Below are positions 7,198 through 28,733 of a stretch of DNA of 28,733 bases, piece after piece. A program made the translations under genes and the position numbers. The stretch comes from a virus. The DNA is taken from the IMG/VR virus record IMGVR_UViG_3300040809_000734, positions 1 to 28,733 of that record, one strand, 5' to 3'. Numbering within the stretch: position 1 is the stretch's first letter; each line of letters starts with the position of its first letter. The notes beneath the pieces were generated by a model. It searched no databases, had not been told where the DNA came from, and saw only the letters and a program-made list of their open reading frames with translations.

Positions 7198-8095
7198 TGT
7201 TTTAGCCCCTCCCTGTAGAAATACAGGAAAGATAATACATTGAATTGCTGGAAACTCTCGGTAAGTGTACAGTAGGATACTAGATGGTGACATACTAGCG
7301 AACCCTAAAAATCTGTACAATAGAGACAATCAGCAGGGAAGGCTCTATAGTTAACTTTCAAATAGGAGGTTACTATGGAAATATGGTTAACAATCCCATT
7401 CGAGGATCAGTATGAAGTGTCTGATCTCGGAAGGGTACGTAATAAACAAACTAAACATATAAAAAGTTTAAGATATAACAAAGGTGGTTACTTGAGGGTG
7501 ACCTTATATCCTTCTGGTAAAACTTACGCTGTACATTCTTTAGTTGGTAAGGTGTTTTTGCAAGAGTTTTATAGAGAAGGTTTACAGATAGACCACCTTA
7601 ACAGTGTCCGAGATGATAACAGGCTTTGTAATTTAGAATGGGTAACTGCTAAAGAGAATACCAGACGCATAAATAAAAGAGCTGATGTTAAAGGTATGAA
7701 GAACCCTTGCAGTAAAATAACAGAGCAACAAGCCTACTATATAAAGTACACTTTTGATATACCTAATAGTGTGATGTGTAGAGAGCTTGGATTATCAAGA
7801 AGTATCGTTGAAAAGATTAGAAATAGGGAAAGGTGGGTGCATATAATCGACCCAGATCTTGAATCTAAATATATCAACGGTGAAATAAAATATAAAAGAT
7901 TAGTTTAGTTAACTATAGAGCAACCTTCAACGACTATCCCTGATGGGAGTAGAGTGTAAGTTTATGACACTCGAAGTGGTGTACACCTTAGTATTATATT
8001 TAATATAGGTGAAGATATAGTCTGGTCTTTATGGAGACATAAAGCTGCAACAGGGAGTTGCGGTCTAAGAGTTACGAACTTAGATGAACATAACG
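7198..8095 (+). other. Group I intron (td-like) in nrdA, carrying an HNH ORF
   Basis: An 898-base intron. P1 pairs exon GGGU (7194-7197) with intron GCCC (7205-7208), placing U.G at the splice site. P2 is CCTGTA/TACAGG with a GAAA loop (7212-7227). GATATAGTCT (8014-8023), the stem CTTTATG/CATAAAG with a GAGA loop (8027-8044) and the P9-like stem TCTAAG/CTTAGA (8064-8084) match the thyA intron element by element. The terminal base is G 8095. The ORF is inside the loop of a perfect 14-bp stem (7342-7355 with 7908-7921). The two introns share a ribozyme core but carry different endonucleases. Confidence 0.88.
7375..7908 (+). CDS. Intron-encoded HNH homing endonuclease
   Basis: A 177-aa endonuclease. 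The N-terminal NUMOD4 motif (IWLTIPFEDQYEVSDLGRV) is followed by an HNH-type metal-finger segment (VHSLVGKVF, then LQIDHLNSVRDDNRLCNLEWVT, residues about 58-92). A C-terminal helix-turn-helix follows (ITEQQAYYIK, MCRELGLSRSIVEKI). It should nick or cut intronless nrdA and promote intron homing. An AGGAGG ribosome-binding site precedes the ATG. The stop codon touches the intron stem, showing close fitting of ORF and ribozyme. Confidence 0.9.
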   Translation: MEIWLTIPFEDQYEVSDLGRVRNKQTKHIKSLRYNKGGYLRVTLYPSGKTYAVHSLVGKVFLQEFYREGLQIDHLNSVRDDNRLCNLEWVTAKENTRRINKRADVKGMKNPCSKITEQQAYYIKYTFDIPNSVMCRELGLSRSIVEKIRNRERWVHIIDPDLESKYINGEIKYKRLV

Positions 8096-12687: not shown

Positions 12688-12705
12688 ATGATTTAATATA
12701 TTAAT

Positions 12706-15310: not shown

Positions 15311-15661
15311 ATGAAGACACAATTGACGATAGAACAGTTCATGGACCTCCTAACTAAGTTCAAACCAGATGAGGAATTCTTCCAAGGAGTTTATAAGTGT
15401 GAACCCTATGTAGGGGACTTAAGTAATGTAACTCTTCTTATGAATGATGATGGTAGTCGGGGTATGGTCCATGAAGTATTTCAGATATTGAATGATGTAG
15501 TAGGTCAAACTGTATTGGACCCATACCATATGGAAAGAATCATTACAAAAGAGTGTAAATTGTACTTGTCTTATGAAGGTTGTTATGGTAAAGTTATTAC
15601 AGGTTTGGAATTGACACCAAGGGGTTTGAACTTCAAGGTGGAGAGAGATATTTTTAATTGA
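15311..15661 (+). CDS. Hypothetical protein, 116 aa
   Basis: TAGGAGG precedes the ATG. The product is soluble, with an N-terminal helical segment (LTIEQFMDLLTKFKPDEEFF) and a mixed remainder including GCYGKVITGLELTPRG. No recognised domain or catalytic motif. It belongs to the post-endolysin run of small genes. Confidence 0.7.
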   Translation: MKTQLTIEQFMDLLTKFKPDEEFFQGVYKCEPYVGDLSNVTLLMNDDGSRGMVHEVFQILNDVVGQTVLDPYHMERIITKECKLYLSYEGCYGKVITGLELTPRGLNFKVERDIFN

Positions 15662-26379: not shown

Positions 26380-27576
26380 ATGAAAGAACTAAATTCTAAA
26401 ATAGAACACTTCCTTACACTGAACTACCCTTTAACAAATAACCGTTATAAAATATCTAATCTAGGAAGAGTCTGGGACTGTAAATCCAATAGATTTGTAT
26501 CACATGTACTAACTGGAAAGCCTTCTTACTTCTATGTGAACCTAACACTATCTAATAATAAAAGAGTTCTTAGAAGAGTGCATAACTTAATGGCTAAAAC
26601 CTTTATAGAGAATCCTGAAGATAAACCTATAGTAGATCATATAGACCGTAATAGATATAATAACTCTTTACCAAACCTTAGATGGGCTACTAGAAAAGAG
26701 AACGCTAGAAACTTACATCTTAACGTATACTATAAAGGACAACTACTATTAGACTACTGTAAAAGTAAATACCCAGAAGATAGCAGTGCTTTTAGTTACA
26801 TCAATCAAAAGAAGAACCTTCAAAATATCTCTATAGAAGATGCTGAAGCATTATACTTAGAGAGTAGAGCTGGTGAAGATATGAGAACTGTAACTGTGAA
26901 TAATAAAAATATCCGCCTTAAACATTATGCTGAAATATTAGATACAACCATATCAGAAATATCAACACTAAAAAATAATAACATATCTTATACTCTACTA
27001 GCTGAAGGACTTATTCTTAATAAGAAATATCTACATAGTTTGAAACCTGTATCAGAACTCCGTATGGAACAATCTATAGAGGTCTACGGTAAATGGTATC
27101 CCTCTCAAAGAGAACTATGTAGATGTTATGATATTAGTGAACATACTTTTAGAGAAAGACTTAAAAGAGGTATGAGTATACATGAAGCACTACACCATGA
27201 ACATATAAAGGCTTATGAAGCAATCTTAAATGGTAAAACTGTTACAGGAACTATTAGAGAATTGAGTGATATGTTTGGCATCCGTTATGAAATGGTATCT
27301 GACAGGATTAACAATAAAAAGATGTCCTTACAAGAAGCTTTAACAGGTAGTCGTAAAAAGTTTATGAAGTATAAAATAAATGGGGAGTTAGTACCTAAGA
27401 AGGACCTAATTTTAAAGTATCTACCAAATATTGATACTAAAACTTTTAATAGTAAACATTCTGTATTCCTTAAACGTTACAATCTTAAAGGTATCTCTGG
27501 TAATGTGGAAGGGTTGAGGATGACTTTTGAATTCTTTGGTGTGAAGGACATACCTGAAGATATTGAACCTTTTTAG
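26380..27576 (+). CDS. Free-standing HNH homing endonuclease with repeated C-terminal modules
   Basis: A 398-aa protein. The N-terminus has a NUMOD4-like segment (YKISNLGRVWDC) and an HNH core (VHNLMAKTF, then IVDHIDRNRYNNSLPNLRW, residues about 67-102). The remaining 280 residues appear to be five degenerate modules of about 40-50 residues. They lie at 117-160, 171-212, 234-272, 282-323 and 332-372. Each has the pattern Gly-Lys, a helix (xELxxxYxI), an Arg-rich helix and often MSxxEAL. They are probably DNA-binding units. It lies at the end of the + strand block and has only a weak ribosome-binding site. Confidence 0.82.
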   Translation: MKELNSKIEHFLTLNYPLTNNRYKISNLGRVWDCKSNRFVSHVLTGKPSYFYVNLTLSNNKRVLRRVHNLMAKTFIENPEDKPIVDHIDRNRYNNSLPNLRWATRKENARNLHLNVYYKGQLLLDYCKSKYPEDSSAFSYINQKKNLQNISIEDAEALYLESRAGEDMRTVTVNNKNIRLKHYAEILDTTISEISTLKNNNISYTLLAEGLILNKKYLHSLKPVSELRMEQSIEVYGKWYPSQRELCRCYDISEHTFRERLKRGMSIHEALHHEHIKAYEAILNGKTVTGTIRELSDMFGIRYEMVSDRINNKKMSLQEALTGSRKKFMKYKINGELVPKKDLILKYLPNIDTKTFNSKHSVFLKRYNLKGISGNVEGLRMTFEFFGVKDIPEDIEPF

Positions 27577-27616
27577 TATACTTTAGAAGATTAGCTTTAG
27601 AGGGTTTCTGATTAGG

Positions 27617-27675
27617 GTGGGACTGTAAATGGGTCTAGCACCACTTAATCCAACCCCAGCCCACTATATATTTTT
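27617..27675 (+). terminator. Terminator closing the + strand gene block
   Basis: GTGGG-A-CTG (27617-27625) pairs with CAGCCCAC (27657-27664) around a bulged A. The stem can extend by GGGT (27631-27634) with ACCC (27653-27656). TATATATTTTT (27665-27675) follows directly. It stands between convergent genes. The rest of the gap to 27769 is non-coding and contains unusual C7 and C6 runs. Confidence 0.6.
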
Positions 27676-27769
27676 ACAGCACAATATAGAAATATCGAAG
27701 CAGACCATCCTACAAAGACCCCCCCAGAGGACCACCTCAGAAGCCCCCCAAGAAGATATCTTTTAAAGG

Positions 27770-28012
27770 TTAACCCATATAGTTGCTATCTTTCAAGTCT
27801 TCCTCTGAAGCGTTTTCCTCTACCCAGTTCTCATATTCTACTAGTTCCTTTTTAGTTTTAGCTGTATCTCCAGAATCACCATCAAAGTCACCTTCATAGT
27901 TAACACACCATTTATGACCCCATGAACATTCCTCTAGTCTGGATATTGTTATTACTTGTCCGTCTTTACGTGTAGCCTGATAGTCGCCGCTAGGAAGTCT
28001 TGAAAATTTCAT
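27770..28012 (-). CDS. Hypothetical protein, 80 aa, reverse strand
   Basis: Minus-strand gene starting MKFSRLPSGDYQATRKDGQV. A small beta-rich N-terminal half (ITISRLEECSWGHKWCVNY) is followed by an acidic end (DGDSGDTAKTKKELVEYENW). Its start lies two bases after a hairpin that presents AAGG in the loop. It has its own promoter at 28070-28098. Function unknown; expected to be an early, individually transcribed gene. Confidence 0.65.
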   Translation of the reverse strand: MKFSRLPSGDYQATRKDGQVITISRLEECSWGHKWCVNYEGDFDGDSGDTAKTKKELVEYENWVEENASEEDLKDSNYMG

Positions 28013-28087
28013 ATACTGTTACCTTATACAGTGGTTAGCTAAAGCGGTATTGCCTTAGCTGGTGTATTCATTATGGGGGATAACCTC
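28010..28087 (-). repeat. Promoter-leader cassette, copy A
   Basis: This segment matches 28311-28387 over most of its length, including the start of the gene (ATGAAA-TTTC). On the minus strand it carries the -10 region, CAGCTAAGG, a hairpin (28037-28045 with 28052-28060, nine pairs with one G.U) and a second stem ACTGT/ACAGT (28015-28032). The eight-base loop of that stem holds the AAGG ribosome-binding sequence. Confidence 0.65.
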
Positions 28088-28098
28088 TGATAAGTCAA
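28070..28098 (-). promoter_or_regulatory. Promoter for the 80-aa reverse gene
   Basis: Minus strand: TTGACT (28098-28093), 17 bases, CATAAT (28075-28070), each 5/6 to consensus. Transcription would start near 28063, giving a leader of about 50 bases with two hairpins. Confidence 0.6.
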
Positions 28099-28118
28099 GC
28101 CCCTAAGTGAAATAAATA

Positions 28119-28313
28119 TTACTTAACAATCTCTAAAAATTTGACTCTAAGTTTAGCCAGTGAGATAGCCTTTTTAGCTGCTACTGTATTGATAGCGCCC
28201 ATTTGATAGATTAAGCAATGCAAGCTTACAACGTCTTTTCTACTTTTGATATATTCTTCTGCTAAACCTGATTCATTGTTTTTTAAAGTGTTTAATACAG
28301 TAGAAAGTTTCAT
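28119..28313 (-). CDS. Hypothetical protein, 64 aa, reverse strand
   Basis: Minus-strand gene beginning MKLSTVLNTLKNNESGLAEE. Helical, basic small protein (KKAISLAKLRVKFLEIVK at the end). It uses the second copy of the promoter-leader cassette, and even its first codons resemble those of the neighbouring gene. No family recognised. Confidence 0.6.
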   Translation of the reverse strand: MKLSTVLNTLKNNESGLAEEYIKSRKDVVSLHCLIYQMGAINTVAAKKAISLAKLRVKFLEIVK

Positions 28314-28387
28314 AACTGTTCACCTTTACAGTGGTTAATGCCTTGGGGTTGTTCCCTTAGCTGGTGTATTCATTATGGGGTATAACC
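28311..28387 (-). repeat. Promoter-leader cassette, copy B
   Basis: Second copy of the element at 28010-28087. The stem ACTGT/ACAGT (28315-28319 with 28328-28332) again has an eight-base loop containing AAAGG. The middle hairpin has changed to a shorter GGG/CCC stem. The block from CCAGCTAAGG back to the -10 region is nearly identical in both copies. Confidence 0.65.
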
Positions 28388-28400
28388 TTTAAAAGATCCA
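28372..28400 (-). promoter_or_regulatory. Promoter for the 64-aa reverse gene
   Basis: Minus strand CATAAT (28377-28372) as in copy A. The -35 region is poorer: TTGGAT with an 18-base spacer or TGGATC with 17. Supported mainly by being the duplicate of the promoter at 28070-28098. Confidence 0.45.
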
Positions 28401-28681
28401 ATAAAAGATCAACTATTTTAATACAAGATAGTTATATACATATACTAAAACCTATATAAGCTGTAATCCTTCCTGTAAGCCATCCTAAGCGGTTTTCTCT
28501 AAAAGTGATACTATGACAGCCAGAACAAGAGATCTCAATTTTCACTATAATAGTGCAAAATGATCATTCACCAAATGAATAATGGTAGACACTAATACAT
28601 AACTAAAATCAATACATTCTATATAACATTCTCATATACTATATAACTATGATATCATCATAACCCTTTGACAGACTCATC
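28401..28681. other. Non-coding AT-rich region with palindromes
   Basis: No convincing gene on either strand. It contains the odd-centre palindrome CACTAT-A-ATAGTG (28543-28555), the 10-bp palindrome ATGATATCAT (28649-28658), a direct repeat CTATATAAC (28619-28627 and 28639-28647) and TTGACA on the + strand (28668-28673) without a good -10. The content fits an operator-rich control region or a replication origin flank. Confidence 0.5.
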
Positions 28682-28733
28682 TTAATAGTGTTCTATTAAT
28701 AGGGTATTCTTAATAGGTCTACCTTAATAGTAC
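28682..28733. repeat. TTAATAG array with 14-bp period, running off the right edge
   Basis: TTAATAG occurs at 28682-28688, 28696-28702, 28710-28716 and 28724-28730. The starts are exactly 14 bases apart, with seven-base spacers of unrelated sequence. The array may continue beyond the window. Regular spacing of a short motif in AT-rich DNA is typical of iterons or multiple binding sites for one protein. Confidence 0.65.

Follow-up and report, generated by a model that had tools for sequence, protein, structure and literature searches.

The window, that is the whole stretch of DNA analysed here, is a linear phage record of 28.7 kb from IMG/VR. Its plus strand encodes thymidylate synthase, DHFR, a split ribonucleotide reductase, PhoH, ClpP and a PIF1-type helicase, and two small genes (64 and 80 aa) lie on the minus strand at its end. 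This layout mirrors that of Pseudoalteromonas phage PH357, where small genes of early type form a region that faces the nrd/phoH block, and likewise resembles that of Alteromonas phage PT11-V22; the window phage is of marine type. For its metabolic block, even the nearest proteins share only about 30-54% identity, and there is therefore no close relative with which it can be compared. A 39-nt repeat (79%) is present at 2712-2750 and 8007-8045, one copy following a GIY-YIG-like ORF beside a thymidylate synthase piece and the other an HNH-like ORF in the nrdA gap, and the copies may be the 3' portions of two self-splicing introns that are related to each other. The AT-rich, gene-free end contains a repeat with a 14-bp period (CTTAATAG) at 28680-28730, which is perhaps an origin or the cause of the contig ending there; PH357 has a gene-poor repeat region of 2.1 kb in a similar place.

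The 64-aa ORF (28119-28313, minus strand) is lysine-rich, and protein scans detected no relatives of it. The 80-aa ORF (27770-28012, minus strand) has homologues in Vibrio phage vB_VmeM-32 (59% over 66 aa), in PH357 and in one IMG/VR contig, while a search of genome contigs for this family returned none. No alignment was obtained between the two proteins, which are unrelated, in line with the first-pass annotation of this DNA. The similar first codon run that it reported is also there, both genes starting with ATGAAAyTTTC. Since the homologues of the 80-aa protein begin with VKFTK or MLKFTK, the MKF start probably belongs to the 80-aa gene.

Each gene stands behind one copy of a duplicated promoter-leader cassette, situated where the first-pass annotation had placed it and consisting of two direct-repeat blocks, one of 37 nt (28050-28086 and 28352-28388, 95%) and one of 23 nt (28015-28037 and 28315-28337, 83%). 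The repeat had been described as a unit of about 75 bases beginning at the -10 region; in fact it reaches further upstream, to the -35 in both copies, and runs in both through -35, -10, a leader of about 51 nt and the first codons, ending at approximately the fourth codon. The promoter of copy 2 (28070-28098, minus strand) is sigma-70-like, with TTGACT (28098-28093), a spacer of 17 nt and CATAAT (28075-28070), and has 10 of 12 consensus matches. That of copy 1 (28372-28401, minus strand) comprises a weak -35, TTGGAT (28401-28396), a spacer of 18 nt and CATAAT (28377-28372); it scores 10.4, less than the median of 11.8 for the best site in shuffled sequence, and is supported by the duplication and its position, not by its score. 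Part of this promoter (28374-28397, minus strand) has a 24-nt inverted match at 27758-27781 on the plus strand, 15 nt of it exact (ATCTTTTAAAGGTTA); one arm lies where the 80-aa gene ends and the other in the copy 1 promoter, with both genes between them. The stretch TTTTAAAGGTTA is found in PT11-V22 too, as an RBS stretch. Terminator-like sites are absent from 27400-28733, and the best hairpin upstream of promoter 2 reaches only -2.2 kcal/mol; the hairpins of the leaders were themselves rejected as terminators, having no U tract. A search for further copies had been proposed in the first-pass annotation. The 24-mer CCATAATGAATACACCAGCTAAGG occurs twice (0 expected from 100 shuffles), and IMG/VR, scanned with exact and with gapped patterns, yielded no further copy of the cassette, the sole pattern match being a 17-mer inside a coding gene (L093, a 776-aa ORF) that was judged to be due to chance. 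A blastn comparison of the cassette with phages gave no match, and Rfam gave only a weak sub-threshold one.

Between the two repeat blocks lies a second hairpin, stronger than the one at the ribosome-binding site (RBS) and overlooked in the first-pass annotation. In copy 1 this 5'-proximal stem-loop (28340-28361, minus strand) is GCUAAGGG-AACAAC-CCCAAGGC, with 6 of 8 pairs, a central tandem A.A mismatch and a predicted start at about +5. In copy 2 (28037-28060, minus strand) it is AGCUAAGGC-AAUACC-GCUUUAGCU, with a predicted start at about +4 and an 8-6-8 core, GCUAAGGC-AAUACC-GCUUUAGC, in which all eight pairs form, or nine with the outer A-U. The 5' arm AGCTAAGG is shared, the loop and the 3' arm have diverged between the copies, and the 8-6-8 geometry is found in both. 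Shuffles of the variable segment equalled the pairing of copy 1 in 0.26% of cases and its energy in 0.44%; for copy 2 the figures were 0.02% and 0.04%. These tests were run after the structure had already been noticed. With whole-leader shuffles, the MFE of copy 2 was reached in 0.5% (significant) and that of copy 1 in 13% (not significant). Among 62 early leaders from five distantly related phages, 9 have 5'-proximal hairpins, where 4.3 (sd 1.8) would be expected, and VmeM-32 contributes none of the 9; the enrichment is modest, as some shuffles reach 11. Overall, the RNA fold that looks preserved despite sequence change is this 5'-proximal hairpin, seen in two copies which, with only this pair and no close relatives, fall short of a true covariation series.

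The hairpin on which the first-pass annotation had concentrated, an ACTGT/ACAGT stem with an eight-base loop containing AAGG, is present in both copies as described. In copy 1 (28315-28332, minus strand) it reads ACUGU-AAAGGUGA-ACAGU, with AAGG at 28326-28323 and -3.1 kcal/mol when folded alone, and in copy 2 (28015-28032, minus strand) ACUGU-AUAAGGUA-ACAGU, with AAGG at 28025-28022; the 8-nt loops are AAAGGTGA and ATAAGGTA and the stem is identical, so that it offers no covariation to judge. In copy 2, the loop of the 5' hairpin (28037-28060) contains UACC and the RBS loop (28015-28032) its complement GGUA, a possible kissing contact of which we see no clear repeat in copy 1 or in other leaders.

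The RBS hairpin had been taken as a sign of selection for RNA structure, for example as the site of a translational repressor. The 18-nt stem-loop, with AAGG in the loop, would then be the operator at which an RNA-binding protein of the phage or its host blocks translation of an early regulon. The constant stem and loop size in spite of changed loop letters would suit this, as would the fact that T4 gp43 uses an 18-base hairpin operator (PMC3014915). However, with AAGG held fixed about 14% of shuffles produce a stem of at least 5 bp around it, and the stem is retained in 12% of trials with random changes of two insertions and one deletion. The SD lies in such a hairpin loop in 7 of the 62 early leaders, where 8.4 are expected, so there is no enrichment; the hairpin is weak, with AAGG mostly unpaired (about 0.5-0.99), and IMG/VR holds no further copy. 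The stem is also absent from the leaders of the VmeM-32 and G002 homologues of the 80-aa gene, and the leader of the PH357 homologue has just a weak A-U stem at the RBS position. Moreover, a RegA-type repressor (PF01818) was found in none of the window (a partial genome), PT11-V22, G001, PH357 and G002, and was present in VmeM-32, the positive control. The RBS hairpin is weak and at chance level and fails as evidence of selection, and a repressor site there, suggested by nothing more than the shape, is improbable; such signs of selection on RNA structure as we find are at the 5'-proximal hairpin. A recent duplication in which no RNA structure was selected, both hairpins being by-products of the copying of promoter and leader, would suffice for the 95% block and the identical RBS stem. 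Nevertheless, the strongly diverged segment between the blocks still pairs with the 5' arm in the same geometry in both copies and similar 5' hairpins exist in other phages, and we regard plain duplication as rather unlikely.

Two readings that place the signal outside the hairpins appear more doubtful still. The ATG in CATAATG, overlapping each -10, opens short ORFs on the minus strand (MNTPAKGTTPRH at about 28373-28335 and MNTPAKAIPL at about 28071-28039), and translation of these could be coupled to the main genes: they have MNTPAK in common, both stop shortly 5' of the main SD, and an AGG stands 12 nt upstream of the ATG. With CATAAT as the -10, where the promoter of copy 2 matches at 10 of 12 positions, the mRNA would however begin after this ATG, the SD spacing would be long, and related early genes mostly have short leaders, all of which makes a translated leader highly unlikely. 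It is just as hard to credit that the conserved promoter spacer AGGTTATnCCCC is a DNA operator for a transcriptional repressor or activator controlling both genes, for its near-identity between the copies, to which the inverted match at 27758-27781 may be added, is also explained by recent copying, and neither a palindrome nor a known operator was recognised in it.

Comparable arrangements are found in other phages. In PH357 a leader with AGCTAAGG-GATGTT-CCTTAGC (AGCTAAGGGATGTTCCTTAGC) directly follows the -10 (exact pattern match at 15327-15347). In the 132-kb IMG/VR genome G002, two unrelated genes each have a copy of TGGCTRGCAAGGGTGTTAGCC immediately 3' of the promoter, one pair being retained through a change from A-U to G-U, and the leader is better conserved than the promoters. 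PT11-V22 has a similar 5'-proximal hairpin in a leader, and comparison of its cassettes at offsets 10889, 12186 and 12705 (0-based from 13401) identified the early gene at 12705 as having a mosaic cassette, its promoter being like that of one neighbour and its leader like that of a second. A mosaic of this sort may reflect modular shuffling, for which the window phage has no near relative as a comparison. In the T4-like VmeM-32, near-identical terminator-promoter-leader units, an arrangement known as PeSL, precede several genes. From these sequences, duplication of promoter-leader cassettes is general in the early regions of these phages.

Taken together, we think it probable that the locus contains two copies of a mobile cassette of early promoter and leader, which resembles a PeSL lacking its terminator and in which the 5' stem-loop probably serves to protect the mRNA. 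In each copy, a sigma-70-type promoter would be followed by a leader that opens with the 5'-proximal stem-loop, and then by a Shine-Dalgarno site and the opening codons, the two copies being set before unrelated small genes of putative accessory function. The most likely origin is a promoter-leader module that was copied or recombined, as happens in the early or hyperplastic regions of large lytic phages. RppH and RNase E favour single-stranded 5' ends and 5' secondary structure stabilises mRNA (reviewed in PMC3997798), so a stem separated from the predicted end of the transcript by only 3-4 nt fits a protective role, and would most likely shield short, presumably early, mRNAs from 5'-end-dependent decay of the RppH/RNase E type. 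The RBS hairpin would then be weak and inherited, and the Shine-Dalgarno site would stay accessible within it. The 5'-proximal placement depends on the predicted start sites, near 28365 and 28063, and fails if transcription starts elsewhere, and the two A.A mismatches and weak -35 of copy 1 weaken this reading. If instead an undescribed RNA-binding protein of the phage recognised the 5' stem-loop and the SD-in-loop hairpin jointly, the leader would act in this lineage as a portable element of RNA control and place a set of early genes under common regulation; we consider this very unlikely, and on present evidence no new regulator is revealed. The duplicated cassette suggests that growth of early regions by copying of promoter-leader modules extends beyond the T4-like phages to PH357-like and Myoalterovirus-like ones, and that such modules may carry a 5' stem-loop in place of a terminator. 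If confirmed, they would provide ready parts for the expression of small phage genes and help in recognising early genes in metagenomic contigs.

The promoter-early stem-loop cassettes (PeSLs) of the T4-type phages RB49 and phi1 were reportedly described by Arbiol in 2010 and Comeau in 2014. A PeSL has a sigma-70-like early promoter adjoining a stem-loop that is a transcription terminator. The cassette studied here is similar in its early sigma-70-like promoter, in two copies before unrelated genes, but it has no terminator and its stem-loop is part of the leader and lacks a U tract, and for want of the terminator we do not file it as a PeSL. PeSLs are short cassettes that recur before unrelated accessory genes and are thought to mediate gene shuffling (both studies are cited in PMC4503421). 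In the SAS/ESAS system of cluster K mycobacteriophages a motif recurs where translation of unrelated genes begins, and about half of its occurrences have inverted repeats upstream (PMC3203893); the likeness is one of idea and not of sequence, as the 13-bp GGGATAGGAGCCC is absent from both starts and the repeat here includes the promoter. The ompA and papA mRNAs of E. coli are stabilised by 5'-terminal stem-loops (PMC3997798), and here too a stem-loop is predicted a few nucleotides from the 5' end (+4/+5 from the -10), although the sequence is unrelated and the 5' end is inferred. The translational operator of T4 gene 43 is, like the RBS hairpin, an 18-base hairpin close to the SD, but it has a UAAC loop (PMC3014915), which is missing from AAAGGUGA and AUAAGGUA, and it is a single site on the mRNA of a DNA polymerase, whereas here a repeated cassette precedes small orphan targets. 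The cassette is a modest variation on known promoter-leader cassettes, which are common in phage early regions.
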